Translations under genes and position numbers: made by a program
In this document: positions 6,734 through 56,239 of the stretch, in pieces
Layout: the number at the start of each line of letters is the position of its first letter
Numbering within the stretch: position 1 is the stretch's first letter
From: Fluviicola chungangensis
Lineage (GTDB): Bacteria; Bacteroidota; Bacteroidia; Flavobacteriales_D; Crocinitomicaceae
Length of the DNA: 64,000 nt
NCBI RefSeq assembly: GCF_007558725.1
Contig: NZ_VLPL01000003.1
Location: 310,001-374,000, forward strand
Reading direction: 5' to 3'
The notes under the pieces: model-generated
The model's input: the letters and a program-made list of their open reading frames with translations, nothing else
The model's database searches: none
What the model was told of the DNA's origin: nothing

Positions 6734-6745
6734 TCAAAAAGTACT

Positions 6746-7765
6746 ATGCAACAAAAACAGAACTTTATTGCAGCTATCGCATTCGTATTCGGATTGAATG
6801 TGGTGCATGCTCAGAACAATGTCGGGATCGGAACGACTACCCCGAATCCGAACGCCATTTTGGAAATGCAGTCAACCAGCCAGGGAGTTCTGGTACCAAG
6901 GATGACAACGGTTCAACGAAATGCAATAGCCGCTCCAACCGAAGGATTGCTGGTTTATGATATTGATGTGAATTGCTTCTTCTTTTACGAAAGCAGTACG
7001 ACATCCTGGTTAAGTTTATGCAATGCCGGTGGAGTTGGTCCGGCTGGTCCACAAGGCCCGGCAGGTCCCGCTGGTCCGACAGGTGCTACAGGAGCAACCG
7101 GTCCGCAAGGTCCTGCGGGAGCAAATGGTATGGATGGTGCTGCAGGTCCGACTGGTCCTCAGGGTCCTCAAGGTCCTGCGGGAACAAATGGGGTGGATGG
7201 TGTAGCCGGCCCACAAGGCCCAATTGGTGCAACTGGTCCACAAGGTCCAGCGGGTCCGGCAGGTGCTACGGGAGCAACAGGAGCGACCGGTCCGGCAGGA
7301 GCAACGGGGGCAACGGGTCCGCAAGGCCCTCCGGGAGTGATTAATAAATATCACGTGTATGGAACATCGGGAAGAGCAGGAGTGAACACTACCGCATTAA
7401 CGGTGCAACCGGGAATGACTCAGACCTTTACATTATCAGCTACTTCGACAGTGATTATTTGGGCGACTATTGGAGCTTTAAACACTACTTTGACAACTAC
7501 TGGTTATTCAACTGTTGATATGGTAGTGCATGTGGACGGGAACCCTTTGGCAAATGGGGGATGGAACCGTATGTTCATTACAAATACGTCTGCTACAACA
7601 GGTTTGGGGAACTGTGCTATCAATACAATGATCACACTTCCTGCAGGTATACATACAATTGATCTGAGAACAAACCGTTCTTCAGGAACTTCGGTTGTAA
7701 CGATCGGTGGAAACTCTGCTTTGGAAGTGAATCCGGGAGAGTTGACAATTATGGTGTTAAACTAA
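6746..7765 (+). CDS. Collagen-like (Gly-X-Y) repeat secreted protein
   Basis: 339 residues. A signal peptide (about 1-22, ending VVHAQ) is followed by a segment common in secreted Bacteroidota proteins ([16 protein letters not shown], then GVLVPRMT and GLLVYD), which resembles the start of phage-tail-fibre-like surface proteins. Residues 98-196 are 33 uninterrupted Gly-X-Y triplets (GPA, GPQ, GAT, GPT types), a bacterial collagen-like triple helix. The C-terminal ~140 residues look like a beta-rich trimeric head. It probably forms a trimer: stalk plus head, displayed outside the cell. No T9SS sorting domain is visible at the C-terminus, so its export route is open. It lies between the type B adhesin and a small secreted protein, in one likely operon. 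Confidence 0.85.
7037..7333 (+). repeat. In-frame collagen-like triplet repeats
   Basis: 297 bases coding 33 Gly-X-Y triplets; the DNA repeats short blocks such as GGTCCGGCAGG and GGAGCAACG. Long antisense frames here are by-products of the repeat. Confidence 0.9.
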
Positions 7766-7778
7766 ATAAGTATTGATC

Positions 7779-8039
7779 ATGAAGCAATTTTTAGTATTGA
7801 TCGGACTGTTTGTATGCTCGACAGCTGCTTTCTCTCAACAGCAGATTTCGAATGCAAAAAAACTACCTCCGGCTCCGGTAGAAGCAAACACAAGTCAATT
7901 GCAAGTTTCGGATTCTATTGGTGTAAATTCTGCAACCAAGCAAATAAATCTGATTTCTCCTGTCGTGCCTAAAGAGAATCAGGACTCCAATAGCCAGGAA
8001 AAACCTGTTTTGAACTCTACAAATAGAAAACCGGAATAG
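7779..8039 (+). CDS. Small secreted protein of unknown function
   Basis: 86 residues from the ATG at 7779; a TTG six bases earlier is less likely. A clear signal peptide (MKQFLVLIGLFVCSTAAFSQ) is followed by about 65 hydrophilic, Pro/Ser/Asn/Gln-rich residues without cysteines or recognisable fold, probably disordered. It lies 13 bases after the collagen-like gene and is followed by a terminator, so it is the last gene of that operon. I do not recognise a family. Confidence 0.7.
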   Translation: MKQFLVLIGLFVCSTAAFSQQQISNAKKLPPAPVEANTSQLQVSDSIGVNSATKQINLISPVVPKENQDSNSQEKPVLNSTNRKPE

Positions 8040-41980: not shown

Positions 41981-42020
41981 ATCTTTTCATCTGTAAATCT
42001 AAAAATAGACTCCCGGTCAA

Positions 42021-42048
42021 TTGAATTGGTTCAAATAGATTAATTTTG
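42021..42048 (+). promoter_or_regulatory. mtnA promoter
   Basis: TTG at 42021-42023, 17 bases, TAATTTTG at 42041-42048; ATG at 42066. Confidence 0.6.
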
Positions 42049-42065
42049 CGGCATAAAATAAGTTT

Positions 42066-43130
42066 ATGAGCGCATTCAGAACCATTTGGACAACCGAGGA
42101 CCACTACGTGGAAGTTATTGATCAACGCAAATTACCCCATGAATGGGTAGTTGAAAAATTGATTTCCTATAAAGACGCGGAACGTGCAATCAAAGAGATG
42201 GTTGTTCGTGGTGCTCCGTTAATTGGTGCTACTGCTGCTTATGGTATTTACCTGGCAGCAAAAGAAGGTGCGGATTTAAATGAGGCATTTGCCGATTTGC
42301 GACTTTCAAGACCGACAGCAGTGAATTTATTCTGGGCACTAGACCGCATGAAAGCAAAACTTGCCGGTGCAACAGACCTGGTTCAGACTGCCTGGGAAGA
42401 AGCCGCTCAAATTGTGGAAGATGACGTCGAAACGTGCCGCATGATCGGTGTGCACGGTTTGCCTTTGATTGAGGCTATTTCAAAGAAAAAAAGGGGAGAA
42501 ACGGTTCATATCCTGACGCATTGCAACGCAGGAATGTTGGGTTGCATCGAGTGGGGAACCATTACGTCACCGATTTATCAGGCTGTCCAAAAAGGAATTA
42601 AAGTGCACGTTTGGGTGGATGAAACACGTCCGCGCCTGCAAGGTGCAAATCTGACCTGTTATGAACTGACAAGACACGATGTTCCGCATACACTGATTGT
42701 AGATAACCAGGGCGGACATTTGATGCAGCACGGTATGGTTGACATGTGTATTGTTGGGACAGATCGAACGACTCGTCAGGGAGATGTCGCCAATAAGATC
42801 GGAACCTATCTGAAAGCACTTGCAGCACACGATAATCACATTCCGTTTTATGTAGCGCTTCCGTCAACGACTTTGGATATGACGATTCGTGATGGTTTGA
42901 AAGAAATCCCGATCGAACAGCGAAACCAGAATGAAGTACGCTATGTGGTCGGTAAAAGCAAGATCACCGGTCAGTTGGATGAAGTACTGATCTGCCCGGA
43001 AACCACGCAGGCAAGCAATTACGGATTTGATGTGACTCCCGCACGTTTGGTAACGGCATTGATTACAGAACGCGGAGTTTGCAATGCCAGCGAAGAAGGA
43101 TTGTTGAAGCTCTTCCCGGAATACAACTAA
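42066..43130 (+). CDS. mtnA: S-methyl-5-thioribose-1-phosphate isomerase
   Basis: 354 residues. It isomerises methylthioribose-1-phosphate to methylthioribulose-1-phosphate, the substrate of MtnB. The family pattern of the eIF-2B-like fold is clear: VVRGAPLIGATAAYG, the catalytic Cys in LTHCNAGML, ETRPRLQGANLT, and the catalytic Asp in VGTDRTTRQGDVANKIGT. It has its own promoter. With MtnB, MtnC and MtnD encoded nearby, most of the salvage pathway is in this window; the nucleosidase or phosphorylase and the final aminotransferase are not. Confidence 0.95.
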   Translation: MSAFRTIWTTEDHYVEVIDQRKLPHEWVVEKLISYKDAERAIKEMVVRGAPLIGATAAYGIYLAAKEGADLNEAFADLRLSRPTAVNLFWALDRMKAKLAGATDLVQTAWEEAAQIVEDDVETCRMIGVHGLPLIEAISKKKRGETVHILTHCNAGMLGCIEWGTITSPIYQAVQKGIKVHVWVDETRPRLQGANLTCYELTRHDVPHTLIVDNQGGHLMQHGMVDMCIVGTDRTTRQGDVANKIGTYLKALAAHDNHIPFYVALPSTTLDMTIRDGLKEIPIEQRNQNEVRYVVGKSKITGQLDEVLICPETTQASNYGFDVTPARLVTALITERGVCNASEEGLLKLFPEYN

Positions 43131-43142
43131 GGATGTTCCTTA

Positions 43143-43181
43143 TGTCCCATGTGGTTCATTTTTATTAAACCACATAGGACA
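43143..43181. repeat. Dispersed inverted repeat at the left flank of the accessory island
   Basis: TGTCCCATGTGGTT (43143-43156) with AACCACATAGGACA (43168-43181), 14 bp with one mismatch and an 11-base loop. The arm CCACATAGGACA recurs at 50831-50842 on the other side of the island. Elements with this core are common intergenic repeats in Bacteroidota. Confidence 0.6.
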
Positions 43182-43278
43182 AATAGCCAAAATCTTTAAA
43201 ATCCTTTGAAATCTCTGTAGCCCAGTTACAATAAAGGATTCAGCACATTCGTTATATGGGAAGGAACCAAGAAGAATT

Positions 43279-43321
43279 TAGGGGAATTGGGGGTCAAACC
43301 TCCAATTTTCCTACCCTTTTT
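43279..43321 (+). terminator. Strong terminator before the island
   Basis: TAGGGGAATTGGGGGT (43279-43294), loop CAA, ACCTCCAATTTTCCTA (43298-43313), 16 bp with three G-U pairs, then CCCTTTTT. Confidence 0.75.
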
Positions 43322-43380
43322 AGTATCCAAACTATAAGTTATTACTTATACGTTTGAATCAACCAAATAAATGAATCACC

Positions 43381-43692
43381 ATGAAATTAAAGATCAATTT
43401 CATATTAAAAACAGGAGTTCAAGGAGAAATTCCTGTATTAGCTGTAATGAACTTCGGGTACAAAGAGTTTGATGCTTTGAAGCAAACTTATGTATATAAA
43501 CCGCTTCGCTATTATACTGGAGTTAAAGTTAAGAAATCTGATTGGAATGAAGTAGAAAAATTACCCACGGAAAAATCCAAACGGGCAATACTTCTTCAAA
43601 TCAATAAAAAAGCGACCTTGATTTCTGTCGCTTTTTTGATTATAACTTTAATCTGTTTTCGTTTAGGACTGAAACAGCAAGTAAAATCGTGA
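43381..43692 (+). pseudogene. Truncated tyrosine recombinase: N-terminal arm DNA-binding domain only
   Basis: 103 codons. Residues 1 to about 76 resemble the arm-type DNA-binding domain at the start of Bacteroidota tyrosine recombinases (MKLKINFILKTG, then RYYTGVKVKKSDWN and a basic segment KSKRAILLQINK). The core-binding and catalytic domains are missing. The remaining 27 codons read through a terminator hairpin (43606-43637) into hydrophobic nonsense. Most likely a recombinase gene cut off by an insertion or deletion. It could still make a short protein; a small stand-alone DNA-binding protein is the alternative. Confidence 0.55.
43606..43637 (+). terminator. Terminator inside the recombinase remnant frame
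   Basis: AAAAAAGCGAC, 10-base loop, GTCGCTTTTTT: a perfect 11-bp stem. Its position inside an open frame supports the view that coding function stops before it. Confidence 0.75.
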
Positions 43693-43915
43693 TTATTTTC
43701 CGATAGGTCTAGTTCGAATAAAGAAAAATTCAGCGTTTTAAGCCGCTTTTCTTGTTTTAAGCCCCAAATAAAAGACTCGGATTTTATTAATTATACAAAG
43801 AAGAAATATGTTATCTTCTTTGAAGATCTAATTGCTAAAGGTTATTCTATATTTAACTTATTTGGAATTATTCTATTTTAAGTACAATTTTCTAAAAAGT
43901 TGATTGTGATCAAAA
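43693..43915. other. AT-rich non-coding stretch at the start of the island
   Basis: No convincing ORF. One strong hairpin, CAAAGAAGA (43796-43804) with TCTTCTTTG (43814-43822). ATCTTC-TTT-GAAGAT (43813-43827) is an alternative fold using the same 3' arm. I see no continuation of the recombinase in any frame. Confidence 0.45.
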
Positions 43916-43923
43916 TAATTTTG
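43916..43923 (+). promoter_or_regulatory. Candidate -7 element of the RiPP operon
   Basis: TAATTTTG fits TAnnTTTG, but the nearest TTG (43900-43902) is only 13 bases upstream. The ATG at 44012 is about 90 bases downstream. Confidence 0.35.
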
Positions 43924-44011
43924 TAACATTGTTTGAACTAGCACATTACATTAATCTAATTCAACACCATTAACCTCCACGGTGGCAAGAGTGGAGAGCT
44001 TAGCACTATTT

Positions 44012-46369
44012 ATGAAGTTACTAACCCTAGCACTGATATTATTCCCATTTACTTTAGTGGCACAAAGCACCCTATCAGGAAAAATCTCAAATATTTCCGG
44101 GGAACCACAGATTTATTGCAAGTTGTTACTGATTCAGGATTCTATGGTATTACAAACTGTGGGTACAGATTCAATCGGGAATTATGCTTTCGAATCGGTT
44201 TCTTCGGGTGAATACAAACTAAGTATAAGAGTTCCATTTCAAACGATTGATACAATGGTTGTAGTAAACGGACCGACCATTGTAGATCTAAAAATTGATG
44301 ATGGGAAATACTTAGACGATGTAGAGATTATTGGAAAAAAGCCAGTAGTAATTAGGAAGGTTGACCGTACTATTTTTAATCCTACTGACATACCTGCTCT
44401 TGTTGGTGGAGATGCATCAGATGTAATCGAGTTTGCACCTGGAGTTATTATAAATGGTGATAATATTCAAGTGGCTGGTGGTTCTTCGGCACAAGTGATG
44501 CTTAATGATAAGCTGATACCACTAACAGGATTGCCTCTGATTTCATTTATTCGATCAATTCCCACAGAAGACATTCAATATGTGGAGATTATTCCAATAC
44601 CTCCCGTGAAATATGCAGCAACTGTTCGTGGTAGTTTGATTAATATTAAACTAGTTATTGGTGCAAAAAGTAGACAAAGCAAAGGAAGTCTTCGTGCCGA
44701 TTTTGGGCAGCGTTTTTACAATCAATTAGGATTGATGGCGAATTATTCATACAGATCCGGAAGATTCAGTTTATACTCAAATATTAGTGCAAATAAAGAA
44801 AAATACCATTACATAAGCACAAAAACAATTGACTACGATACCTTACAATGGAATGAGAATGGTACTACAGTTGCAGAACTAGGTATGCTTACAGGTTCTG
44901 TCGGTTTAAATTATGAAATAAACTCCTCTACCGAATTAGGCTTATTGGCTGTTGTCGATAATTTTAACGGACGAAATACCGATCGTAGTTTTATTGAGAA
45001 AATCTCTAATTTAGGCTATGGAACAATTGATAACTTAACCGTTAACAAAGGAATTAAGAATCAATACGCATTTAATCTAAATTTATCAAAGCGTCTCGAT
45101 TCACTTGGGCAAAAGTTAGATTTCAACGTTGATTATACCAATTACAATAGGAACGGAAAAATTAATTTTGAAACTGATAATAGAGATCTGATGAGTAGCA
45201 CCCACACATCTATTAGAAATCAAAACCTAGCTGGTGCTAATTTATTATCCGGAGGAATTGATTATGTTCTTCCAAAAAAGAATGTAAATCTAAGTTTTGG
45301 CGCTCGATATTCTTATTCAGAGAATAATACAGATTTGGCTGTTTTTAATAACCTAACTAATCCGGAAGTTCCAGATACATCTCAAAGTAACAAGTTCAAC
45401 TATTTTGAACATATCCAGGCAGGGTATGCAGAAATGCAATGGAAGAAAAATAGATGGTCATTCCAATTAGGTATTCGTGGAGAAAATACATATTATTTGG
45501 CTAATTCACCAACATCTGCCCTGTCAATAAAGAATGATTATTTTGAGTTGCTGCCCAAAGCATTTGCGATGTTTGAAACAAAAAAAAGTCAATACTGGAA
45601 CTTCAACTACTCGAGAAATTTCGTGCGTCCGAATTATACTGACCTGAACCCGTTTAAATATTATACTACTGCATATAGTTATACCACAGGTAATCCTTAT
45701 CTAAAACCAATAATTTTGCATAATCTATCTGTTTCAACCGGTGTTAAGGATTTCCAATTTTACCTTTCTTTTGGTTACATCGAAAAAATGCAAACGAATG
45801 TAACGATCTACGATGAAGCGACACAAGTTCAACAAACCACCATTTCTAATCTTTTTTCGTCTCGGTCGATTGATTTTAGTGTGAACTACTACAAGACTAT
45901 AAAGAAGCGAACTACAATTGATGCATATATAAGTTGTGGTTACGTTAACCGTACTGTAATATCGACGATTGCATCTCAGAACTTAAATATTTTTTCTGGC
46001 TATATCAATGTTTCAGTAAACCAAGTGTTAGATAAAAGAGAAAGTTTTTTTCTTAAAGCAGCTATCAGTTACCACACACCATATTTTGAACAAATTTCAT
46101 TAACCACAACAAGGCCTAGCATGGGGGTGAAATTGAAAAAAAATCTTCTAAAAAACAGAATAACGCTCGAATTGAGTTGTAGTGATCCTTTCAGATTTCA
46201 AAGGAGATCAACAAACACTACGAGCAATCAAACGACGATAAAACAATTTAGTTATTACGATACTCAAGAAGTTCGTTTTTGTTTCACATATAAATTGGGA
46301 AATACCCGATTGTTAGTGAATCAGCATAGTACTAATAGTACTGGCGAAGCAGGTAGGATCGGTAAGTAA
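44012..46369 (+). CDS. Outer-membrane receptor/beta-barrel protein of the RiPP cluster
   Basis: 785 residues from the ATG at 44012, start of a signal peptide (MKLLTLALILFPFTLVAQ). An N-terminal carboxypeptidase-regulatory-like domain (about 20-95) is followed by a plug-like region (about 110-215: DASDVIEFAPGVIINGDNIQ, SAQVMLNDKLIPLTGLP) and a long barrel of the OMP_b-brl_3 type rich in Tyr and Asn. It is related to TonB-dependent receptors. It is the first gene of the RiPP block, so it may carry the finished peptide across the outer membrane, or act as a receptor/importer or immunity component. A hairpin and 85 bases separate it from the precursor genes, so its level may differ from theirs. 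Confidence 0.82.
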   Translation: MKLLTLALILFPFTLVAQSTLSGKISNISGEPQIYCKLLLIQDSMVLQTVGTDSIGNYAFESVSSGEYKLSIRVPFQTIDTMVVVNGPTIVDLKIDDGKYLDDVEIIGKKPVVIRKVDRTIFNPTDIPALVGGDASDVIEFAPGVIINGDNIQVAGGSSAQVMLNDKLIPLTGLPLISFIRSIPTEDIQYVEIIPIPPVKYAATVRGSLINIKLVIGAKSRQSKGSLRADFGQRFYNQLGLMANYSYRSGRFSLYSNISANKEKYHYISTKTIDYDTLQWNENGTTVAELGMLTGSVGLNYEINSSTELGLLAVVDNFNGRNTDRSFIEKISNLGYGTIDNLTVNKGIKNQYAFNLNLSKRLDSLGQKLDFNVDYTNYNRNGKINFETDNRDLMSSTHTSIRNQNLAGANLLSGGIDYVLPKKNVNLSFGARYSYSENNTDLAVFNNLTNPEVPDTSQSNKFNYFEHIQAGYAEMQWKKNRWSFQLGIRGENTYYLANSPTSALSIKNDYFELLPKAFAMFETKKSQYWNFNYSRNFVRPNYTDLNPFKYYTTAYSYTTGNPYLKPIILHNLSVSTGVKDFQFYLSFGYIEKMQTNVTIYDEATQVQQTTISNLFSSRSIDFSVNYYKTIKKRTTIDAYISCGYVNRTVISTIASQNLNIFSGYINVSVNQVLDKRESFFLKAAISYHTPYFEQISLTTTRPSMGVKLKKNLLKNRITLELSCSDPFRFQRRSTNTTSNQTTIKQFSYYDTQEVRFCFTYKLGNTRLLVNQHSTNSTGEAGRIGK

Positions 46370-46372
46370 GAT

Positions 46373-46413
46373 ATTTAGATACAGGAGTTGTGCGCAGACC
46401 ATTGTATCTAAAT
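46373..46413 (+). promoter_or_regulatory. Hairpin between receptor gene and precursor genes
   Basis: ATTTAGATACA (46373-46383) and TGTATCTAAAT (46403-46413), a perfect 11-bp stem with a 19-base loop, starting 4 bases after the receptor stop codon. No T run follows. It may be an mRNA processing or stabilising site that lets precursor mRNA exceed the rest, or an attenuator. Confidence 0.5.
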
Positions 46414-46454
46414 ACGCCTAGCAAAGTGCGAAGCGTGCATTTAAACTATTCATC

Positions 46455-46676
46455 ATGAGTAAACAAAAAGGACTTGAATTGAAACAAGTCGATGAAAAAC
46501 TATCTGGTGGCTTCCAAAAATTGAGTTCAACTAAGTTGGCACAAATCAAGGGAGGGGAACAGATAAACCGTATTTGTACTAATTCCGGTACGTGTCCATC
46601 TGTTAACACACAGGAATGCAAAAATCAGTACGGTTGTGCAGAGGCACTTAATAGAACTGTCTGCACGAAATTTTAA
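46455..46676 (+). CDS. RiPP precursor peptide 1 (double-glycine leader, Cys-rich core)
   Basis: 73 residues. The leader (1-34) has LSGGFQKLSSTKLAQIKGG and ends in a double glycine, the usual cut site of C39 peptidases; an inner GG (18-19) is also present in all three peptides. The core (35-73) has Cys at 41, 47, 55, 61 and 70. Cys41 and Cys55 are each followed by x-Asn (CTN, CKN), and Asn51 and Asn66 lie four residues before Cys55 and Cys70. The peptide has no hydrophobic signal sequence, so export must use the dedicated transporter. Its relation to the maturase is inferred from position and leader similarity among the three peptides. Confidence 0.85.
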   Translation: MSKQKGLELKQVDEKLSGGFQKLSSTKLAQIKGGEQINRICTNSGTCPSVNTQECKNQYGCAEALNRTVCTKF

Positions 46677-46698
46677 TCATCTTCAATTCAAAAAATCT

Positions 46699-46932
46699 AT
46701 GAAAGATCATTTAGCATTGACCCAAGAAAATGATAAATTGCTTGGGGGCTTTTCGGTGTTATCAACTGAGAAGCTAAGAAGAATCAATGGCGGTGTTGCC
46801 GATCCAAACACAAAGTGTACGAATAACGACTCAAGGGTTTGTAATACCACCAACAAAACCACCTGTACTAACTACAATGGGCATTGTGCGGATTCTTACA
46901 ACGCTGATTATTGTCAAAATAGAACTAGTTAA
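46699..46932 (+). CDS. RiPP precursor peptide 2 (double-glycine leader, Cys-rich core)
   Basis: 77 residues from the ATG at 46699; the frame is open further upstream but overlaps precursor 1. The leader (1-32) reads LTQENDKLLGGFSVLSTEKL and ends INGG, very close to precursor 3. The core has Cys at 40, 48, 56, 63 and 72. CTN follows at Cys40 and Cys56, CQN at Cys72, and Asn52 and Asn68 lie four residues before Cys56 and Cys72. It lies 22 bases after precursor 1. Thr and Asn are abundant in the core, which would suit thioether or other side-chain modification. Confidence 0.85.
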   Translation: MKDHLALTQENDKLLGGFSVLSTEKLRRINGGVADPNTKCTNNDSRVCNTTNKTTCTNYNGHCADSYNADYCQNRTS

Positions 46933-46961
46933 TTCTGGTGTATCAAGCTTTAATCAACTTT

Positions 46962-46983
46962 GGAGGCGATTAAGTTCGCCTCC
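46962..46983 (+). promoter_or_regulatory. GC-rich hairpin between precursors 2 and 3
   Basis: GGAGGCGA, loop TTAAGT, TCGCCTCC, a perfect 8-bp stem. The following bases (TTACTATG) are not a T run, so it may only partly stop transcription and set the ratio of precursors to maturase/exporter. Confidence 0.5.
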
Positions 46984-47021
46984 TTACTATGTCACTTTAT
47001 AACCAATAAAATTATCACATT

Positions 47022-47258
47022 ATGAAAAAAAAAAAATTAAACTTAATTCAAGAGAATGAAAAATTAAAAGGAGGATTTTCGGTATTGTCACATGAAAAGC
47101 TAAAGAAAATCACTGGAGGTATCATCGTTAATGATACATGCACAAATAAAGAGTATAAAGCTTGTCGGGATAATTTAAATAGGAGTTTTTGTACAAATAT
47201 CCATGTTGAGAGTTGTATAGATACTCAAAACGCGGGAGTCTGTAGAACGATCGAATGA
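47022..47258 (+). CDS. RiPP precursor peptide 3 (double-glycine leader, Cys-rich core)
   Basis: 78 residues. The leader (1-33) reads LIQENEKLKGGFSVLSHEKL and ends ITGG. The core has Cys at 40, 48, 57, 65 and 74. CTN occurs at Cys40 and Cys57, and Asn53 and Asn70 lie four residues before Cys57 and Cys74. The spacing between Cys4 and Cys5 is 8 residues in all three precursors. It is 28 bases upstream of the maturase gene. The Met is followed by four Lys. Confidence 0.85.
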   Translation: MKKKKLNLIQENEKLKGGFSVLSHEKLKKITGGIIVNDTCTNKEYKACRDNLNRSFCTNIHVESCIDTQNAGVCRTIE

Positions 47259-47286
47259 ATTAATGGAATAACTTAATTTTTCAACC

Positions 47287-48594
47287 ATGAACACAAACTA
47301 TAAAAACAGTCAATTTAATGTATTCTTTCCTCATGAGGGAATGATGGTTGGCTATAACGGATACTCTAATGAATTCTTGGAATTAAACCCGGAATTGTAT
47401 TCAATCCTGCAAGACGTTATCAAAAGCAAAGATTGGGTAGGATTACAAGAAATACATGTTGAATTTTTTGATGCACTAGTGGAATTAGGATTTATTATCC
47501 CAGATGATGCGAATGAGGTAGAAAAAGTAAAGAAGGCTGTTTATGAAATGGATCAGAATGATCGAAAATCATATACTTTGACTATTAATCCAACTATGAA
47601 TTGCAATTTCAAGTGTTGGTATTGTTATGAAACTCACATCAAGGATTCTAAAATGAGTGAACAGACAATTACAAATGTTGTGAATCACGTAAAGAAGGTT
47701 GTTTCAGGGAACAGTGATCTGGAGTATTTTAGCCTATCCTGGTTCGGGGGGGAACCATTGTTGTATTTCTATAAAACCGTAGTTCCAATTTTACAGGAAG
47801 TTGTGCCGTTTTGTGAAGAACGAAACGTTCAATTTACTGCTGGGTTCACATCAAACGGATTTTTGATTGATCAGAAAGTAATTGATTTATGTAAGGAATA
47901 CCGGTCAGACTTCTTTCAAATAACTCTGGACGGACATCGGGAAAGACATAATCAGGTTAGATATGTGAGTAAAGAAAGAGGTTCATACGATGAAATAGTT
48001 TCCAATATCAAGCTTTGTGTAAAAAATGAAGTAAGAGTTTCAGTTAGAATTAACGTATCTGAAGAAACTTTGGAAAACATCATGCAAATAACAGAAGATT
48101 TTAGTGATTTGACCGATTCGGAAAAAGAGTACATGAATTTTTCTTTTCATGAGGTTTGGCAAGAGGAAAAGGACATTGTGGGCGACATTCAGGAAGTTGT
48201 TAACCGTTTCCGAAGTATGGGATTACACACGCTATTTCATGGAGCAAATATAGACTCAATGCGAAGTTCTTGTTACGCAGATAAAAACAATCAGGCCACC
48301 ATCAATTACAATGGTGACGTTTTTAAATGTACAGCACGTGATTTTGAATCAAGTTCTCGAGAAGGGGTTTTATTAGAAAATGGTGAAATTGAATGGAACC
48401 AGACTTATTCTAAAAGAATGGAATCCAAATTTAAAAACGCACCTTGTTTAAGTTGTAAATTACTACCTATTTGTAATGGAGGGTGTTCGCAGCAAGCAAT
48501 GGAACATGCGGGCCGGGATTATTGTTTGTACGACTATGATGAAGACAAAAAAACAGATTTAATTAAAGACAAGTACCTATATTACATTTCTTAA
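47287..48594 (+). CDS. Radical SAM/SPASM peptide maturase
   Basis: 435 residues. An N-terminal region (about 1-95) may be a precursor-recognition domain like those of other RiPP maturases. The radical SAM core binds a [4Fe-4S] cluster through Cys106, Cys110 and Cys113 (CNFKCWYC) and has the SAM-binding SWFGGEPLL and QITLDGHRERHNQVR. The C-terminal SPASM domain, for two auxiliary clusters, keeps seven Cys: 329, 348, 387, 390, 396, 400 and 413 (CLSCKLLPICNGGC). Enzymes of this kind form thioether (sactipeptide, ranthipeptide) or carbon-carbon links in peptides. The substrates are most likely the three precursors just upstream. Its stop codon overlaps the exporter's start by one base. Confidence 0.93.
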   Translation: MNTNYKNSQFNVFFPHEGMMVGYNGYSNEFLELNPELYSILQDVIKSKDWVGLQEIHVEFFDALVELGFIIPDDANEVEKVKKAVYEMDQNDRKSYTLTINPTMNCNFKCWYCYETHIKDSKMSEQTITNVVNHVKKVVSGNSDLEYFSLSWFGGEPLLYFYKTVVPILQEVVPFCEERNVQFTAGFTSNGFLIDQKVIDLCKEYRSDFFQITLDGHRERHNQVRYVSKERGSYDEIVSNIKLCVKNEVRVSVRINVSEETLENIMQITEDFSDLTDSEKEYMNFSFHEVWQEEKDIVGDIQEVVNRFRSMGLHTLFHGANIDSMRSSCYADKNNQATINYNGDVFKCTARDFESSSREGVLLENGEIEWNQTYSKRMESKFKNAPCLSCKLLPICNGGCSQQAMEHAGRDYCLYDYDEDKKTDLIKDKYLYYIS

Positions 48595-50774
48595 TGAAAT
48601 ATATTCGCCAACAGAACATAATGGATTGTGGACCATCGTGTATCGCAATGGTCACATCCCATTATGGTAAAACACTATCATTAGACTATCTAAGGAGCGA
48701 AAGCCAACTAACTAGAGAAGGTATTTCATTATTGAGTATTGAACATACCTGCTCAAAAATCGGTTTTAAGACAGCCTGCGGACAGTTTACTGTAGATTAT
48801 TTAATTCAAAATTTCAAACTACCGGTGATTTTGCATTGGAATTCAAATCACTTTGTAGTTCTTAAGGAAATTATCAAGAAAAAGGGCGAGAATATTTTTG
48901 TAGTCTACGATCCGAGTTATGGAAAAATTAAACTGAAGCAGAAAAACTTTGAGTTAGCGTGGATCAGTGAAGACAATTCAGGGTTTGGTATGTTTTTAGA
49001 ACCTACTGAGGATTTTTACAGTATCGAAAATCATCTGGAGAAAAAATTAAAACTGACGAAATTGTTAGGTTATATAAAACCGCATAAAAAACAATTTTTC
49101 ATCTTGATAATTTTGATGCTGCTGGGAAATGCAATTTCTTTGACTTTCCCATTCCTTACAAAATCATTAATTGATAATGGTGTCGGTAATAAAGATTTAG
49201 GTTACATAACATATGTACTAATCGCTCAATTGACACTGTATATTTCAATGACCATATTCGACGTATTTCGAAATCGTTACTTGCTGTTTATCGGATCGAA
49301 AATCGGGATAACGGTCGTTATAGAGTTTCTTTCGAAATTATTCACTTTACCAATAAGTTTTTTCGAATCACGAATGCACGGTGATTTGCATCAACGAATT
49401 TCAGACAATGATCGAATACAGCAGTTTTTAACGAACCAAAGTATAACCACAGCCTTTTCTATTGTAACCCTGGTTGTATATCTGTGTATTTTACCCTACT
49501 TCGGATTCTCTATATTACTTGCCTATTTAAGTTTGACAAGTCTTGCATTGATATGGTCCTATTATTGGCTGCAAAAACAGAAAAAGATTGATTACCTCAT
49601 TTTCCAGATTGGATCAAAAAATTATGCTTCACTTGCCGAAATTTTAACTGGAATGTCGGAAATGAAACTAAATAGCCTGGAAGAATACAAGCAAAACAAT
49701 TGGAAAAAAGTCCAGGAAGAATTTGTTCGAATTCGATTAAGAAAAATGAAGTTAGGACAGATCCAAAGTTTCGGTTATGAATTTCTGAATCAAGTGAAAA
49801 ACATCCTTGTTGTATTCTTTGCAGCTAATTTGGTTACAACAGGCGATCTTACATTAGGCTCTTTGCTAAGTGTGTCCTATATTGTTGGTCAAATGAATGC
49901 ACCGATTAGCGATATAATTGAATTTAGCCGTTCCTTGCAGGAAGCCAAACTAAGCTATTCGCGTTTATCGGAAATTCAGGATTACGATTCAGAGGACAAC
50001 GATAGCCAAATAGATATTGCTGAGGCCAAAAGAATTGAAAAAGGCATTCAATTTGATAATGTTTCATTTAAATACGATGGTATTGAATCTCCTGTTGTTT
50101 TAAAAAATCTAAACTTCACAATCCCTCATGGAAAAACTACCGCGATTGTAGGAACTAGCGGTAGTGGAAAAACAACTCTAATAAAACTGCTTTTGAAGTA
50201 TTACAAGGTTTCTGAAGGGGAAATTAGAATAAATGATGTTGGAATAAACAATTTGACTGCCAAAAGTGTGAGGGCAAATTGTGGAGTTGTAATGCAGGAT
50301 GGATTCATTTTTTCGGAAACGCTTTTCAGAAACGTGGTTATGGGATCAACTGAGAACAAAGAACGATTCAATCAATCAATCGAAATTGCTAACCTGACAG
50401 ATTTTGTTAATGATCTTCCGTTAGGTGAGAACACAAAACTGGGAATTTCAGGAGTAGGAATTTCTGGTGGACAGAAGCAAAGATTATTAATCGCCCGCGC
50501 TGTGTACAAAAACGCTGATTTTTTCTATTTAGACGAAGCTACTTCTTCACTTGATTCAGAGAATGAACGCATTATTTACGATAACCTGAATAAATATTTC
50601 GAAAATAAAACGGTTGTTATTGTTGCGCATCGCTTGTCAACAGTTAAAAATGCTGATCAAATTATCGTTTTGGAAAAAGGTGAGATCGTCGAAATAGGTT
50701 CACATCAAAGTTTGGTTTCACAACGTGGAGCATATTATTCTCTCGTAGAGAACCAATTAGAATTAGGAGTATAA
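48594..50774 (+). CDS. Peptidase-containing ABC exporter (C39 domain) for the RiPP
   Basis: 726 residues in three parts. Residues 1-~140 are a C39 papain-like peptidase with catalytic Cys12 (QNIMDCGPSC), His86 (NSNHFVVL) and Asp106 (VVYDPSYG), which cuts after a double glycine. Residues ~160-450 are the six-helix ABC transmembrane domain. Residues ~490-726 are the ATPase with Walker A GTSGSGKTT, signature ISGGQKQR and Walker B DFFYLDEATSS. It would remove the leaders at the GG sites and export the cores across the inner membrane. No periplasmic adaptor or TolC-like channel gene is present in the cluster, which leaves the outer-membrane step to the upstream barrel or to a chromosomal partner. 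Confidence 0.95.
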   Translation: MKYIRQQNIMDCGPSCIAMVTSHYGKTLSLDYLRSESQLTREGISLLSIEHTCSKIGFKTACGQFTVDYLIQNFKLPVILHWNSNHFVVLKEIIKKKGENIFVVYDPSYGKIKLKQKNFELAWISEDNSGFGMFLEPTEDFYSIENHLEKKLKLTKLLGYIKPHKKQFFILIILMLLGNAISLTFPFLTKSLIDNGVGNKDLGYITYVLIAQLTLYISMTIFDVFRNRYLLFIGSKIGITVVIEFLSKLFTLPISFFESRMHGDLHQRISDNDRIQQFLTNQSITTAFSIVTLVVYLCILPYFGFSILLAYLSLTSLALIWSYYWLQKQKKIDYLIFQIGSKNYASLAEILTGMSEMKLNSLEEYKQNNWKKVQEEFVRIRLRKMKLGQIQSFGYEFLNQVKNILVVFFAANLVTTGDLTLGSLLSVSYIVGQMNAPISDIIEFSRSLQEAKLSYSRLSEIQDYDSEDNDSQIDIAEAKRIEKGIQFDNVSFKYDGIESPVVLKNLNFTIPHGKTTAIVGTSGSGKTTLIKLLLKYYKVSEGEIRINDVGINNLTAKSVRANCGVVMQDGFIFSETLFRNVVMGSTENKERFNQSIEIANLTDFVNDLPLGENTKLGISGVGISGGQKQRLLIARAVYKNADFFYLDEATSSLDSENERIIYDNLNKYFENKTVVIVAHRLSTVKNADQIIVLEKGEIVEIGSHQSLVSQRGAYYSLVENQLELGV

Positions 50775-50830
50775 TTTTGTACTTCATGGACTTTTTTTAG
50801 ATGAGGTTTGTGGTGGTCTCTTGCTGTTTT

Positions 50831-50842
50831 CCACATAGGACA
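50831..50842. repeat. CCACATAGGACA repeat at the right flank of the accessory island
   Basis: Identical to 12 bases of the left flank repeat (43170-43181), in the same orientation. The inverted partner arm present on the left is missing here. 57 bases after the exporter stop. Confidence 0.5.
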
Positions 50843-50857
50843 TAGTAACTGATTCTG

Positions 50858-53701
50858 TTAGTATTTAATGATCTTATGCGTACGAATATTTTGTCCTTGC
50901 TGGATTTTCACAAAAAACAAGTTACCCTGTAAATCGGAAAGATCAATGGAATCCGTTTCCGATTGGATGCGTGTCTTTTTCAGGGTGCGTCCGCTTCCAT
51001 CGTAGACAACCACCGATGTTTCTGTGTCATTGACTCCACTGAATCGGATAATACCGGTTGTCGGGTTCGGGTAAACTCCGATCTGAAGCAGACTGGCTCC
51101 TTTAACAGACAGATCGTTGTCAATGGGATTGAAGTTCGTTCCGCAAGGTCCTGCATTTTGATTGTAGGCCAATTTGATTTTCTCCGCTTTGGCAAACAAG
51201 CCACCCAAAGGTTCTGTTATACTGGTTGTTGCATGTGTTGAATCATAATACAGTATGTACACGTAGTCGAACTCGATGGTATCCGTTTGCGTAAAAGCAC
51301 GGGAACCATGGGAAGCATAAATGCGATAATCCGTAGGAGGAAGTATTGGTCCCGATGATACAGCTGTTTGAAGCGGTGTCCAGTCAAATCCGGGATTTAT
51401 ACCATCCGTTCCATAAAACAAGGTATCGCTTCCGCCTGGGAAAATGAAACGGGCTTTTGTATTTGTAGTGGTACCGGAAAAAATGTTTCCATTTCCACCG
51501 TAGAACAACGGGGTTCCATCTGGCCAGAAACCATTGGTAATTCGTTCCCATTCCGCTGCTGTTTGAGGATCAGGAATGGTTATACCACCATAAGCAGAAG
51601 AAGCCAGTGTCCGTTCCAGTGTAAAATATTCATTATCAATTATCCCGTCGTTAAAACCGAGTCCGTTGGTACATCCGATAGGAGAAGCATCTTCCGGATT
51701 GTCTAACCCGTCCGAATCCATTTTATTTCCTTTTAAAACCATGAATCCCTGAACAGGTAAGGTATCTTTAAAATTGCTGTCCGAGCCGAATGGCTCATCA
51801 AACAAATCCCCGTTGTAGCAATAGGCCATTCCCAATTCCACGTGTGTACCGATATAGTCATCGGTCGGATTTCCGTTATCCAGGTCCAGGAAGCTTCCGA
51901 TACTGAAACGACTGAAATCATTTTCGCGCGAAATGTATTTTGTTTTGAAGAAAATCGCATTGCTATAAGTATCAGTAGTGTCGCAGTCAAAGGTGTAAGC
52001 ATAATTGTGGGTTTCGATCCCGCCGGGCCGTTCCAGGTTCGGATGGTCATGCCAGATCTGAAGGAAACAGGCATCGCCGTAAATGATCGGATATTCTCCC
52101 AGCATGGGTTCGTAAATGCCGTTTGAGTTTACATCCACATACGGAGCGATTTGGGCACTTTGACCAAGAGAAACATCTCCGTTTCCGGGCCATTCCCGTA
52201 TGCCATGAGGAACCACGTAGCCGGCAGAATTTGATTGAATAGAGTCAATATGTGCTTCGATCATGGCTTTGGTAACATAAAAACCACGATTGTATTTGCT
52301 TTCAACGACATCATTGAACAAATTGTTCGCAGTATAAGGCCCAACCCGTGAAAATTCGAATAAGCCTCCGTTGAATTTTCCAACAGTGTCCCCGTTTTGG
52401 GTAATACCGGTATAAACTTGCTCCAGGTCATATGCAATACGCTTGTTTCCTTTGAATTTGGCACCACTTTCGAAGGCATAATAACCGCTAATTACAGTGG
52501 AACTTTCACTAAAGTTCAATTCAATATCATCCTTTGTGAAGGATGTCTGGTATTCCTGGGGTAATTTAAAATCTACCTGGTCATCTTGGATTAAATGAAC
52601 AAATGCCTGATACGCTTCTTTATCATTTCCGTTGATATCAAAAGTGGCTGAAATGAATGTAGAAGCTCCCAAAAGAATTTGCTGGTCCTGCCGGGAAACG
52701 AATTCATTCATGAAATGAATTCCAGGATAAGTATTGCTGCTTAATAAATTTAAATGGTTGTCCAGGTTTTCGAACAGAAATGACGAACCGGTCTTTCCCA
52801 GCCGATAAAATCCATTCGGTTTTTTGACAATCAGGTGCTGGACGAAATTGGACCCGGTGGTAAACGATCCGGAGGCCAATACCTGAGCAGCGGAATTTAA
52901 TTTGTACCAACTCACGGCATCGCATGCAAGCAAGGTATCCAATGAAAGCGGGATCAGGTGAATACCCGAACCATTGGAGCCGGAAATCGTATTCGGAGTG
53001 AAATTATTGAGGCTGTTCCGAACGTAGATCTTCAAATAATTTTGATAGCTCATCACGGTTAATTCTTTTCCTCCGATTAGCTCGAGTTCCGTGGATCTTT
53101 TCGTGTTTACATAGGAAGAATTACCGGTTGAGACCGTCAAAGAGCCATCGACAAGTTCGGTGTAATAGGTGTTCAGATTGGAAAATGAAATGGAGGTTCG
53201 GTACAAACCACCGCCTTGTTTTACCATATATGTGACCAATTCATTATTGATGTGCTGAGTCTCCACAAATCCAACCATGAATGTATCCGGGAGTTCAAAG
53301 TTTTGAATAACCTGCCCTGTTGTTTTGCTCACTTTGAAGAAAGTAAGGAGCTGATCGGATGGTGACTTGATCAGCAAACTGAACACGTATTCCGTACTTG
53401 TTTCAAAACCGTTCGAAATGAAAACGGACTTCCCGCTCGCCGATGGAATATTCAATGAAAAATCAGTAGCAGATAACAAGTCACCGGTCTCGTTTATTTC
53501 GGAAACTTTCAGTTTAAATGCGGTGGCGCTTCCTCCTTCATGAAGGCTCAAAAGTTTCATATTCCCAACATCCGAATCGAGAACTTTGAGTCGCTGAATA
53601 TGCAGGCTGTTGTAATTGTTCAGAAAGGTGCGTTTGAACTGTGCGTGTGATTGCTGGGTCAAGAAAAAAATCGAAATAAATACAAGTAATACTTTTTTCA
53701 T
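50858..53701 (-). CDS. Large secreted protein with T9SS type A sorting domain
   Basis: 947 residues. Signal peptide (1-20, LTQQSHAQ). The middle is beta-rich, without a domain I can name; the second half has calcium-loop-like acidic stretches (DVNSNGIYEPMLGEYP, DLDNGNPTDDY). The last ~75 residues are a type A T9SS domain (IGVYPNPTTGIIRFSG, VVVYDGSGRTLKK, LQGNLFFVKI, HKIIKY). A surface or extracellular protein. It faces the RiPP operon and marks the return to typical base composition. Confidence 0.82.
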   Translation of the reverse strand: MKKVLLVFISIFFLTQQSHAQFKRTFLNNYNSLHIQRLKVLDSDVGNMKLLSLHEGGSATAFKLKVSEINETGDLLSATDFSLNIPSASGKSVFISNGFETSTEYVFSLLIKSPSDQLLTFFKVSKTTGQVIQNFELPDTFMVGFVETQHINNELVTYMVKQGGGLYRTSISFSNLNTYYTELVDGSLTVSTGNSSYVNTKRSTELELIGGKELTVMSYQNYLKIYVRNSLNNFTPNTISGSNGSGIHLIPLSLDTLLACDAVSWYKLNSAAQVLASGSFTTGSNFVQHLIVKKPNGFYRLGKTGSSFLFENLDNHLNLLSSNTYPGIHFMNEFVSRQDQQILLGASTFISATFDINGNDKEAYQAFVHLIQDDQVDFKLPQEYQTSFTKDDIELNFSESSTVISGYYAFESGAKFKGNKRIAYDLEQVYTGITQNGDTVGKFNGGLFEFSRVGPYTANNLFNDVVESKYNRGFYVTKAMIEAHIDSIQSNSAGYVVPHGIREWPGNGDVSLGQSAQIAPYVDVNSNGIYEPMLGEYPIIYGDACFLQIWHDHPNLERPGGIETHNYAYTFDCDTTDTYSNAIFFKTKYISRENDFSRFSIGSFLDLDNGNPTDDYIGTHVELGMAYCYNGDLFDEPFGSDSNFKDTLPVQGFMVLKGNKMDSDGLDNPEDASPIGCTNGLGFNDGIIDNEYFTLERTLASSAYGGITIPDPQTAAEWERITNGFWPDGTPLFYGGNGNIFSGTTTNTKARFIFPGGSDTLFYGTDGINPGFDWTPLQTAVSSGPILPPTDYRIYASHGSRAFTQTDTIEFDYVYILYYDSTHATTSITEPLGGLFAKAEKIKLAYNQNAGPCGTNFNPIDNDLSVKGASLLQIGVYPNPTTGIIRFSGVNDTETSVVVYDGSGRTLKKTRIQSETDSIDLSDLQGNLFFVKIQQGQNIRTHKIIKY

Positions 53702-53836
53702 AGGTAGGATATAAAGGGATTTGAGGTTAAGTTACCCAATTTCTGCCCGGTAGGAAAAAAATAAATGTGAAGTGTACAAATGTTTTATTGAACTGGTTAA
53801 TACGTTATCCTTCTGTTTCAGAAGAAAACAAGATGA

Positions 53837-56239
53837 TTATTTCCATGCAACTACCTGGATCATCCCTTTTCGGAGTTTCACATTGTTTTTTTGAGGATTG
53901 AACAGGTAATAAACCAATTCGTATTTCTGATCTTCCAAACTGTATTTCCGAACATCGATGCAGAAAGAATAAGTGATCTTGTTCCACTTTTTTACCTGAA
54001 GCGGATCTTGCAGTTTCGGACGATGGTCGTCCCACCGGACCATTTTTTTCTTTTTGATCCGTTCGAGTGCGTAACACAACCTGACAAATTCATCCAGCTC
54101 TTTTCGGTTGTTTAGGAAGATCTCACCGGTAAGTTCTACCTCCAGTGCTTTCCACCCTTTTTTGATGCGAATTTTCGCAGCCAGTTTTATGAATTGGTCC
54201 CGGGACTGATCATGGATGATGGTTTTCACAAAATCTTTGCGCAGAACCGTCTTTTTTCCTTTGCGTGCAAATCGCTGGAATTGTTCCCTGGGAAGAATTT
54301 TGTCGTTCTCGTGGTAATATTGGGCCAGTTTTCGAAAAGCAAAGAGCTGACCGGTAAGTCGATCATTCAAAACAGGATCATTCACCGGAGTCAGTTTCAT
54401 TCCCTTTCGGATGCGGTACAGTTGACCTTCATATTGGTAATGGTTCCCATAAATCAGGTGTTTGGTTTCGCAGTCCAGGGTGATTAAGGGCAACGTCCGC
54501 TTACATATAAAACGTTTCTCAAAAGAAATCTCTTTCCCGAAAAAAGGAACTTGCTTTGGCAGCTCCAGTTCGGGGTAATTGATTCGCAGGTAGTTCAGGA
54601 TCGTAGGAGCAAGATCGTTATGAGAAGAAATCGCATGGAATTGCTGGGTTCTTTTCAATAGAGGAGAAAAAATAAACAGGGGCGTCTGGTATTTTTGAAT
54701 TTCGTTTCTCGGGAACAGGGGATTTCCATGATCTCCGAAAATGAAGAAAATGGTGTTGTCGTAAGTGGATTTTTTGGATGCTTTCTGAAAGTAGTTTTTC
54801 AGAGCATCATCCGTAAAGAGATAACTTCCGTAGATCTCTGAAAGCCGGAGAATTTCTTCTCTCTGCCTGATGGTGCACCGGGAATGCATCAATTTTTTCA
54901 GTACACGTGCGATGTACTGTTTTTTGTTTGGGTAGCAAAATGGCTCGTGCGTACTGATTGTCAAAAAGATGTCCAGCTTTGGTTGTTTTTGCTGGTGTTT
55001 ACGATCATCAACAAAGGACTTTTCAAATAGCTGATCGTCCGAATAGCCCCAAAAATTTGCCATACCGTTTGTTTCGGTTGAGAATTGAGGTTCCCAGGAA
55101 TGAACCTGGTAATCCACCTGGTTATACTCCATGAACTCGTTCATATTGGCAAACCCTAGGTCAACACCACAATAGAAACGCGAATAATAAGGATCCAGCA
55201 ATGAAACCAGTGACCAATGCCGCGGGTATTCCTCCTTCTGCATAAATTCTTTTTCAGGTGGATTGGGAGTCGAGGCCAGCGCTGCCGGAAGCACATTGTG
55301 TGTTCGTTCGCAGGTCGACATGAAATTCGGGAAGTAGAGACTTTTCTTAGACAGTGAGTCCAGGAAAGGCATAAAATGACATGGATTGTTTTCGTTGTTA
55401 CCGATCAAAAAGGTAGACAAAGACTCGACAACTATAATGACAATATTCGGAGGCCCTTTTGACGATTTGTTCAGATAATTCCCCAACTCACTTTGAGGCT
55501 TCAGTTCATGAATTAAGGAATACTCTTCGTCCCGCACAGACGGATCGGGAAAAAAAGAATCATCCAACTGTTTAAAAACGGAAGTATTTACCCGGTCCAA
55601 TTCATTTTCTCCGAAAAAATGCCTTTCACTTACACCGATAAAGGCAATCAGCTTGTTGTTGATTACCATATCCCCCACGTAATCCCTTGAATTGATCACT
55701 TTCCAGGGATAGGCAATAAAAGAAAGAGACATCAACGAAACAAAACCGATGAAGACCAATTTGTTGAAACGAACTTTTCGCAGGCGAAACCCAACAAAAA
55801 AGTAAATGCAAAGCAATGCGACCGGAAAGGTGACCGAGAAAAAAGTGAGATTGGAATCCAGATTAGCAGAAGTTGTTAATTCAGAATAACTCAGCTGATA
55901 GAAAACGTCACCCAACAGCTGATTCGTTTTCACAAAATAAACCGTAAGTGCATAATTGCACAGGATAGCAATGATAGCCAGCAAGTGAAGAAAGAACAGG
56001 TGAATCTTTCTAAAGAATAAGGAGCTTAGAATGATCAGAACGCTTCCGGTTGCCGAAACCAAAAGGGCCAGCAACAAATCCATTAGCATTCCTTTCACGT
56101 GATATTCCGTTTTGATCTTCGTGCGGAAAATCTCATCAGGTTCCATAATCATTTGAAAGATCCGTGAGATAACCAGGACCAAAAAAAAGGAAAGGAAATA
56201 GGGAAGAACTCTTTTAAATATTGATTTGAGCAGGTTCAT
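53837..56239 (-). CDS. Sulfatase-fold membrane protein, LTA synthase-like family
   Basis: 800 residues. Five likely membrane helices (about 10-210) are followed by an extracytoplasmic alkaline-phosphatase/sulfatase-fold domain. Glu272 in VVESLSTF is a metal ligand; Thr313 in CERTHNV is at the place of the catalytic Thr of LTA synthases; FGDHGNP and SSHNDLAPTIL complete the metal site. The last ~200 residues form an extra Lys/Arg-rich region. Relatives transfer phosphoglycerol or phosphoethanolamine to glycans or lipids. Gram-negative bacteria have no lipoteichoic acid, so a role in decorating lipid A, capsule or periplasmic glycan is more likely (inference). Confidence 0.82.
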   Translation of the reverse strand: MNLLKSIFKRVLPYFLSFFLVLVISRIFQMIMEPDEIFRTKIKTEYHVKGMLMDLLLALLVSATGSVLIILSSLFFRKIHLFFLHLLAIIAILCNYALTVYFVKTNQLLGDVFYQLSYSELTTSANLDSNLTFFSVTFPVALLCIYFFVGFRLRKVRFNKLVFIGFVSLMSLSFIAYPWKVINSRDYVGDMVINNKLIAFIGVSERHFFGENELDRVNTSVFKQLDDSFFPDPSVRDEEYSLIHELKPQSELGNYLNKSSKGPPNIVIIVVESLSTFLIGNNENNPCHFMPFLDSLSKKSLYFPNFMSTCERTHNVLPAALASTPNPPEKEFMQKEEYPRHWSLVSLLDPYYSRFYCGVDLGFANMNEFMEYNQVDYQVHSWEPQFSTETNGMANFWGYSDDQLFEKSFVDDRKHQQKQPKLDIFLTISTHEPFCYPNKKQYIARVLKKLMHSRCTIRQREEILRLSEIYGSYLFTDDALKNYFQKASKKSTYDNTIFFIFGDHGNPLFPRNEIQKYQTPLFIFSPLLKRTQQFHAISSHNDLAPTILNYLRINYPELELPKQVPFFGKEISFEKRFICKRTLPLITLDCETKHLIYGNHYQYEGQLYRIRKGMKLTPVNDPVLNDRLTGQLFAFRKLAQYYHENDKILPREQFQRFARKGKKTVLRKDFVKTIIHDQSRDQFIKLAAKIRIKKGWKALEVELTGEIFLNNRKELDEFVRLCYALERIKKKKMVRWDDHRPKLQDPLQVKKWNKITYSFCIDVRKYSLEDQKYELVYYLFNPQKNNVKLRKGMIQVVAWK

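Follow-up and report, generated by a model that had tools for sequence, protein, structure and literature searches.

Does a short AT-rich block in the genome of Fluviicola chungangensis encode a complete pathway for a ribosomally synthesized and post-translationally modified peptide (RiPP), and what would an outer-membrane barrel be doing as its first gene? We examined a 64 kb stretch of this genome (the window; assembly GCF_007558725.1, contig NZ_VLPL01000003.1, positions 310,001-374,000 of the forward strand), to which all coordinates below refer. An earlier note on this DNA had described a complete radical SAM-modified RiPP cassette on an AT-rich island. All the parts that it named (a barrel, three peptides with double-glycine (GG) leaders, a maturase and an exporter) were present and intact at 44012-50774, and the borders of the island and an empty site have now been located. 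The parts, their conservation in other genomes and the island borders can be read directly from the sequences. We consider it fairly probable that the window holds an integrated island whose RiPP cassette belongs to a Bacteroidota family that is widespread and apparently unnamed, with peptides that would carry cysteine thioethers, be exported, and have the barrel as their cognate receptor.

Maturase and exporter

The genes lay on the + strand in the order barrel (44012..46369), three peptide genes (46455..46676, 46699..46932 and 47022..47258), radical SAM/SPASM peptide maturase (47287..48594, 435 amino acids) and C39-peptidase ABC exporter (48594..50774, 726 amino acids). Leader-bearing precursor genes adjoined the gene for a modifying enzyme, as in a radical SAM-modified RiPP.

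A one-genome-per-species scan yielded 97 confirmed relatives of the maturase, and 80 of the 97 loci were fetched with their flanks. The maturase had been credited with all ten cluster cysteines, three in the core and seven in the SPASM region, and all ten were found. In an alignment of 78 maturases, the window's included (L020, L025 and L064 of the 80 were omitted for odd open reading frame (ORF) length), the core cysteines C106, C110 and C113 of the CxxxCxxC radical SAM motif were invariant, as were the SPASM cysteines C329, C387, C390, C396 and C400; C348 and C413 were at least 90% conserved. Pfam assigned the protein to Radical_SAM (E 7.8e-17). The nearest NCBIfam models were TIGR04463 (172.7 bits, E 1.1e-50, cut-off 525), Clo7bot (149.1 of 600 bits) and CefB (146.4 of 600), and the PapB ranthipeptide maturase model gave 116 of 340 bits. 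These models were similar to the window protein over most of its length and act on peptides, several of them cysteine-rich by model name, but the window scores were far below the curated cut-offs and the window precursors matched no model above cut-off. All 78 aligned maturases matched these models (best E 1.5e-55) and were judged to lie far below the cut-offs; bit scores and cut-offs were known for the first member of each alignment, and the other members were judged by E-values. NCBIfam scans of the window proteins and of both the maturase and precursor alignments showed no specific model covering the maturases or the precursors.

The AlphaFold model of the maturase (predicted local distance difference test score, pLDDT, 92.2) placed an N-terminal domain of about residues 1-90, strand-rich and then helical, ahead of the radical SAM barrel. 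The best PDB matches to the fold were SuiB, CteB and TigE (template-modelling (TM) scores 0.50, 0.68 and 0.70, respectively), with SuiB best by E-value, and a PDB sequence search of the maturase returned SuiB and, weakly, ChlB, and nothing else. By analogy with SuiB, CteB and TigE, the N-terminal domain may bind the leader.

The exporter matched Pfam Peptidase_C39, ABC_membrane and ABC_tran, as a C39 peptidase-containing transporter (PCAT) does. Its Cys12/His86/Asp106 triad was intact, in agreement with the earlier note, and none of 58 aligned exporters, the window's among them, differed at Q6, C12, H86 or D106. No HlyD or TolC gene was present in the island, which differs in this from ColV-type type I secretion. 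Three further C39 loci were seen in the same genome (L123, L124 and L126, on contigs C18 and C12). Each scored at or above cut-off for one or more grasp-with-spasm models (L124 for ATP-grasp, L123 and L126 for SPASM), and in all three the exporter was followed by an HlyD-type periplasmic adaptor, matching HlyD models weakly or below cut-off, and an outer-membrane efflux protein (Pfam OEP, 3/3).

Precursor peptides and candidate cross-links

The three peptides, of 73, 77 (start ATG 46699) and 78 amino acids, carried five core cysteines each, as expected. Their double-glycine leaders were also present, but each leader had two GG sites rather than one, at residues 18-19 and 33-34 of peptide 1, 16-17 and 31-32 of peptide 2, and 17-18 and 32-33 of peptide 3. 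An NCBIfam/TIGRFAM search, which had been proposed as a check on novelty, reached no model above cut-off for any of the three. The bacteriocin leader model TIGR01847 gave 15.1, 12.7 and 15.3 bits, just under its cut-off of 15.7, and its match ended at the second GG (residues 20-34 of peptide 1 and 19-33 of peptide 3). TIGR04149, which describes 'GG' precursors of radical SAM-modified Bacteroidota peptides, shares the GG leader and the radical SAM neighbour, but peptides 1 and 3 (15.4 and 14.3 bits) were below its cut-off of 25, and peptide 2 was not among the matches.

Precursors from the related loci were selected in steps, from 183 ORFs after a first filter to 153 after a second, 144 after removal of like tails and 93 picked by hand, with the window's three included; peptide 2 entered the alignment one codon late (46702 rather than 46699). 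TIGR04149 at E 0.1 matched 7/93 of them (best E 0.0017), and lant_leader_L1a likewise matched 7/93 (best E 0.0099). Across the alignment, G19 of peptide 1 was invariant and M1, G18, F20 and C47 were at least 90% conserved, a result that for GG-F is partly one of construction, because the selection filters required a GG[FI]-like motif. The short ORFs of 63 examined loci were recounted without the GG demand; included were those lying between barrel and maturase on the same strand whose second half had two or more cysteines. Among the resulting 113 cysteine-bearing ORFs, 88 had GGF, 16 had the near form [GSN]G[FI] and 9 had neither. As GG-F or its near form was found in 104/113, we take the first GG with its phenylalanine as a family signature. 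The ORFs without it came from L033, L034, L037, L048 and L049, and some are probably not precursors. The second GG was more variable, following GG-F by 12 residues in 24/92 precursors, by 4 in 14/92 and by other distances in 14/92, with none within 14 residues in 40/92. In the maturase tree the window clustered with L019, L021, L022 and L024; this group of five was supported (99/89) and labelled by its tandem-GG leader with spacing 12.

The first GG was considered as the sole cleavage site and rejected, since the TIGR01847 leader match ends at the second GG and what the family shares is the first GG-F. From these positions we infer that the first GG-F would serve in recognition by the maturase and the second GG as the C39 cut. 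In the mechanism that we propose, the N-terminal domain of the maturase would bind the three paralogous precursors via the leader, probably through the conserved first GG-F. The enzyme would then join cysteine sulphur to a carbon of nearby residues within a repeated CxN-x3-5-C-x3-4-N-x3-C unit, where asparagine is the foremost candidate for the acceptor. Cleavage after the second GG and export of the core would fall to the C39 exporter, and the TonB-dependent-receptor-type barrel would be dedicated to the peptide.

The core sequences are consistent with such a repeated unit. Each window core consisted of two copies of C-[TK]-N-x3-5-C-x3-4-N-x3 followed by a final C, a two-unit pattern found in 3/3 window peptides and in 0/20,000 shuffles of each; as the pattern was drawn from these same peptides, the comparison excludes an effect of composition only. 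A looser form of the unit was found in 29/93 precursors (shuffle mean 1.3, maximum 6), an excess that is partly post hoc, the pattern having been loosened after inspection of the relatives. The five-cysteine core is thus one form of a repeat unit common to other genera. Asparagine was enriched at -4 and -1 of cysteine (z 8.0 and 5.7 where the precursor has two GG sites, 10.3 and 9.9 in the rest), values that are inflated by related peptides. A precedent is PapB, a distant relative, which according to PMC9413430 joins cysteine to aspartate or glutamate and accepts Cys-Xn-Asp with n from 0 to 6. For this reason a Cys-Asn or similar link is plausible for the window maturase by analogy. The ranthipeptide system PapA/PapB shares the repeated cysteine-acceptor motifs and the SPASM maturase. 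The window system differs in having asparagine rather than aspartate near cysteine, in its tandem GG leader and in the barrel gene of its locus.

The maturase could instead perform other chemistry, such as C-C links or epimerization, with the cysteines forming disulphides or binding metal, and we give this reading a minor share of our confidence. The relatives of the enzyme include SuiB, the best fold match by E-value, and the DynA model, neither of which is known to yield cysteine thioethers. Against it, the highest-scoring models include maturases of cysteine-rich peptides, and the number of cysteines after GG-F was odd in 37/92 precursors, which does not fit a product whose links are all disulphides.

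Two smaller observations concern the precursor genes. Between peptide genes 2 and 3, a perfect 8-base inverted repeat was noticed by eye (GGAGGCGA, a 6-base loop and TCGCCTCC; 46962-46983), which is possibly a processing or attenuation site; an Rfam scan of 42000-54000 gave no match, and matches in a sigma-70 promoter scan were no better than those in shuffles. The single maturase gene in L089 was preceded by ten precursor genes in tandem (5048-7902), most of them of an NNCxxxNC type, which form a natural variant library.

Conservation of the gene set and the role of the barrel

Among 395 genomes sampled from the class, 13 had a maturase relative at E <1e-20, the window's own included. Within the genus, 2/14 genomes had a maturase at E <1e-100 (the window's own and G404, at 44% identity), and a third, G395, gave a distant match at 5e-12. 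The exporter cluster occurred in 78/80 loci and the barrel cluster in 72/80, most often just upstream; the ORF clusters were built by single-linkage BLAST, and the exporter cluster includes some ABC proteins that are distant, on the opposite strand or not adjoining the maturase. The nearest barrel was upstream on the same strand and at most 2.2 kb from the maturase in 61/72 loci, and 63 of the 68 loci with 5 kb or more of sequence upstream had a barrel. By chance about 0.04 barrels would be expected per 12 kb, judging from the 14 PF14905 matches in the window's own 4.27 Mb genome, though other genomes may be richer. The recurrence of exporter and barrel clusters in 78 and 72 of the 80 homologous loci argues that the gene set is not a chance one.

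The combination of genes had been put forward as one not yet described. Its uniqueness was rejected, because the same set occurs in many Bacteroidota loci and PF14905/SusC-type barrels are already in print, although the family does lack a specific NCBIfam model as far as seen here. PMC8939145 counts 31 occurrences of such barrels in ATP-grasp RiPP loci, and PMC10352776 reports Bacteroidales RiPP loci with C39 exporters and radical SAM enzymes, some with outer-membrane proteins. Among the matches listed in the open-licence PMC literature, we recognized no paper describing this family, which is weak evidence of absence. In HlyD, TolC and ATP-grasp counts made with models from own-genome proteins (ORFs of at least 100 amino acids, flanks of at most 8 kb), HlyD-like proteins were found in 11/80 loci, TolC-like proteins in 0/80 and ATP-grasp proteins in 0/80. 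The grasp-with-spasm graspetide loci of Bacteroidota share the SPASM enzyme, the C39 exporter and sometimes a PF14905 barrel (PMC8939145), but the window family has ATP-grasp in 0/80 loci, the barrel cluster in 72/80 and an HlyD-like gene in 11/80; in the island itself there was no ATP-grasp ligase, nor any further ORF of that size. Judged by sequence, three features appear distinctive here: the tandem GG leader with its conserved first GG-F, a core in which a Cys/Asn unit is repeated, and a barrel of TonB-receptor type in place of HlyD/TolC. A family so widespread, and seen here without a specific NCBIfam model, offers varied cores for testing.

The barrel ORF opened at a GTG at 43982, and the likely start was the ATG at 44012, at the signal-peptide-like MKLLTLALILFPFTLVAQ. 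The protein matched Pfam PF14905 (OMP_b-brl_3) at E 2.7e-71. On its AlphaFold model (pLDDT 85.1) we counted about 22-24 barrel strands, in addition to a signal helix, a plug and a small beta domain. The best Foldseek matches were the TonB-dependent receptors Cir, PhuR, ChuA and FecA, and PqqU and OprC were also among the matches (TM to the query about 0.5). The predicted structure is consistent with a TonB-dependent-receptor type, with a plug in a 22-strand barrel. PQQ (pyrroloquinoline quinone), the ligand of PqqU, is also the product of a peptide pathway.

Barrel and maturase were correlated in their evolutionary distances over the 57 loci where barrel, maturase and exporter genes were all intact (r 0.67, reached in 0/2000 permutations; partial r 0.42 given the exporter), and those of exporter and maturase likewise (r 0.71). 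A precedent is offered by methanobactin, whose receptor and precursor genes lie together. PMC9601215 describes methanobactin as a secreted copper-binding peptide recovered via the TonB-dependent transporter MbnT; it resembles the reading proposed for the window in pairing a secreted peptide with a TonB-dependent receptor and differs in its enzymes. The fold, the distance correlation and this precedent together lead us to read the barrel as a cognate receptor. Re-uptake or sensing by the producer is judged the likeliest role, as a tentative assignment.

Several observations weigh against parts of this reading. The fold matches of the barrel were moderate (TM about 0.5-0.6), the window barrel showed no clear TonB box (an LxEV-like stretch was seen in the family consensus only), and its identity to 63 aligned counterparts was 16-28%, so that a common function is not assured. 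The Spearman correlation over the same 57 loci was 0.29 for barrel and maturase and 0.66 for exporter and maturase, and the correlation of the barrel with the radical SAM enzyme includes common descent. The barrel cluster was missing from 8/80 loci, of which L022, L066 and L073 had less than 5 kb of upstream sequence and five had more. Classical export in trans is possible, because other parts of the genome code for HlyD-like and efflux-type proteins. As for the peptides, the core cysteine and asparagine patterns vary widely and the unit was absent in 64/93 precursors, which makes asparagine weak as an acceptor, and paralogues inflate all precursor motif counts.

Two other roles of the barrel were weighed; each is judged somewhat less probable, but both are live rivals. 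In the first, the barrel would be the outer-membrane exit of the peptide, in place of the TolC of type I secretion. No HlyD or TolC gene adjoins the exporter, in contrast to the genome's three further C39 loci with their HlyD-like and efflux-protein genes, and the low HlyD-like and TolC-like counts in the fetched flanks of the homologous loci point the same way. Export has also been predicted for TonB-receptor-related proteins in graspetide loci (PMC8939145). However, the predicted fold is that of a plugged TonB-dependent importer, and the barrel cluster is kept in 10/11 HlyD-like loci (upstream sequence is truncated in the remaining one, L022), so that an HlyD-like gene and a barrel are not alternatives. 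In the second, the peptides would be antibacterial and the barrel would protect the producer, as an immunity protein or decoy or as a copy of their target receptor that resists them. A GG leader with a C39 exporter is bacteriocin-like, as the near-threshold TIGR01847 scores reflect, and Cir, the receptor of colicin I and microcin V, was among the best fold matches; but Cir was one of many TonB-dependent folds with similar scores, and no other candidate immunity gene was seen in the island.

If the barrel is a cognate receptor, a broader and speculative proposal, which we think improbable as a whole, would be a wide class of Cys/Asn thioether peptides in Bacteroidota, in which every peptide gene is accompanied by one for a dedicated TonB-dependent receptor and the cassette spreads on small site-specific islands; the exported peptide would bind metal or signal and be retaken or sensed via the barrel, as methanobactin is by MbnT. 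A conserved receptor-type barrel in a peptide pathway in any case makes it testable how such a peptide crosses the outer membrane of these Gram-negative bacteria, and in which direction.

Several loci departed from the common layout. A branch of nine (L039, L048, L049, L050, L058, L060, L061, L062 and L067) had lantibiotic-dehydratase-like and HlyD-like genes downstream of the maturase and perhaps represents hybrid lanthipeptide/radical SAM loci; the dehydratase Pfam match was on L048 only, and dehydratase-like ORFs were found in 17/80 loci overall. L034, from a record labelled Beijerinckiaceae (Pseudomonadota), grouped inside Bacteroidota in the maturase tree and its precursors were without GG-F; it is likely a mislabelled metagenome bin or a transfer. 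In L077 and L078, the ORFs matching barrel and exporter were short or split, and the one for the maturase was whole. Eleven plasmid records contained a relative, the best two at 49% and 43% identity.

The island, its empty site and the integrase remnant

The G+C content of 43187-50800 was 34.4%, compared with a mean of 42.1% (standard deviation 1.0, minimum 38.5%) in 206 overlapping segments of equal length from the rest of the 64 kb. A 12-base sequence, CCACATAGGACA, had three exact copies in the 4.27 Mb genome, and two of them flanked the AT-rich block at both edges, both on the + strand: an attachment-site-like left copy at 43170..43181, inside an inverted repeat after mtnA, and a right copy at 50831..50842. 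We compared six same-genus stretches after mtnA (L117-L122). In one of them, L118 of genome G312, mtnA was followed by a single copy of CCACATAGGACA and then by sequence that, small gaps aside, aligned to the window from position 50831 onward. The repeats at both AT-rich edges and the single copy in L118 lead us to read 43182-50842, one repeat copy included, as an insertion. Since only L118 of the six has the 12-mer, the repeat-bearing empty site rests on one genome. The empty site shows how one species gained such a peptide pathway.

The island is best read as an insertion at the 12-mer site with an integrase stub just inside its left end. The direct repeats at both ends and the one-copy empty site are those of a site-specific integrative island, but an intact integrase is missing. 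The earlier note had begun the block at 43381, which proved too early: the ORF at 43381..43692 (+ strand) was rejected as a pathway gene, being an N-terminal remnant of an integrase-like protein outside the RiPP pathway, which begins at the barrel (44012). The first 76 residues of the remnant matched a 436-residue protein of the same genus at 68%, and this counterpart was an integrase by PHROGs (E 1.9e-13); it had no useful Pfam or PDB match. The stub itself had no PHROG match and a sub-threshold match to Arm-DNA-bind. Elsewhere in its own genome there were two full-length integrase relatives (52-53%) and one partial (27%), with the stub alone at the island. Among ORFs of at least 100 amino acids in the 80 related loci, an integrase search found nothing at E 1e-4.

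The reduction of the integrase to its first 76-77 residues would suit a decaying passenger of a dead mobile element. Every pathway ORF is nevertheless full length with intact motifs, and we regard this explanation of the cassette as very improbable. A terminator-like hairpin with a T run was seen by eye inside the integrase remnant ORF (43606-43637); the promoter scan did not list it.

Just right of the island, 50858-53701 encodes a large type IX-sorted protein. In L119, mtnA was directly followed by a sulfatase-family gene (Pfam; window counterpart 53837-56239), so the gene for the type IX-sorted protein is also absent there. L118 keeps a remnant of it, the sequence past its single CCACATAGGACA copy being the counterpart of the 3' end of this gene.

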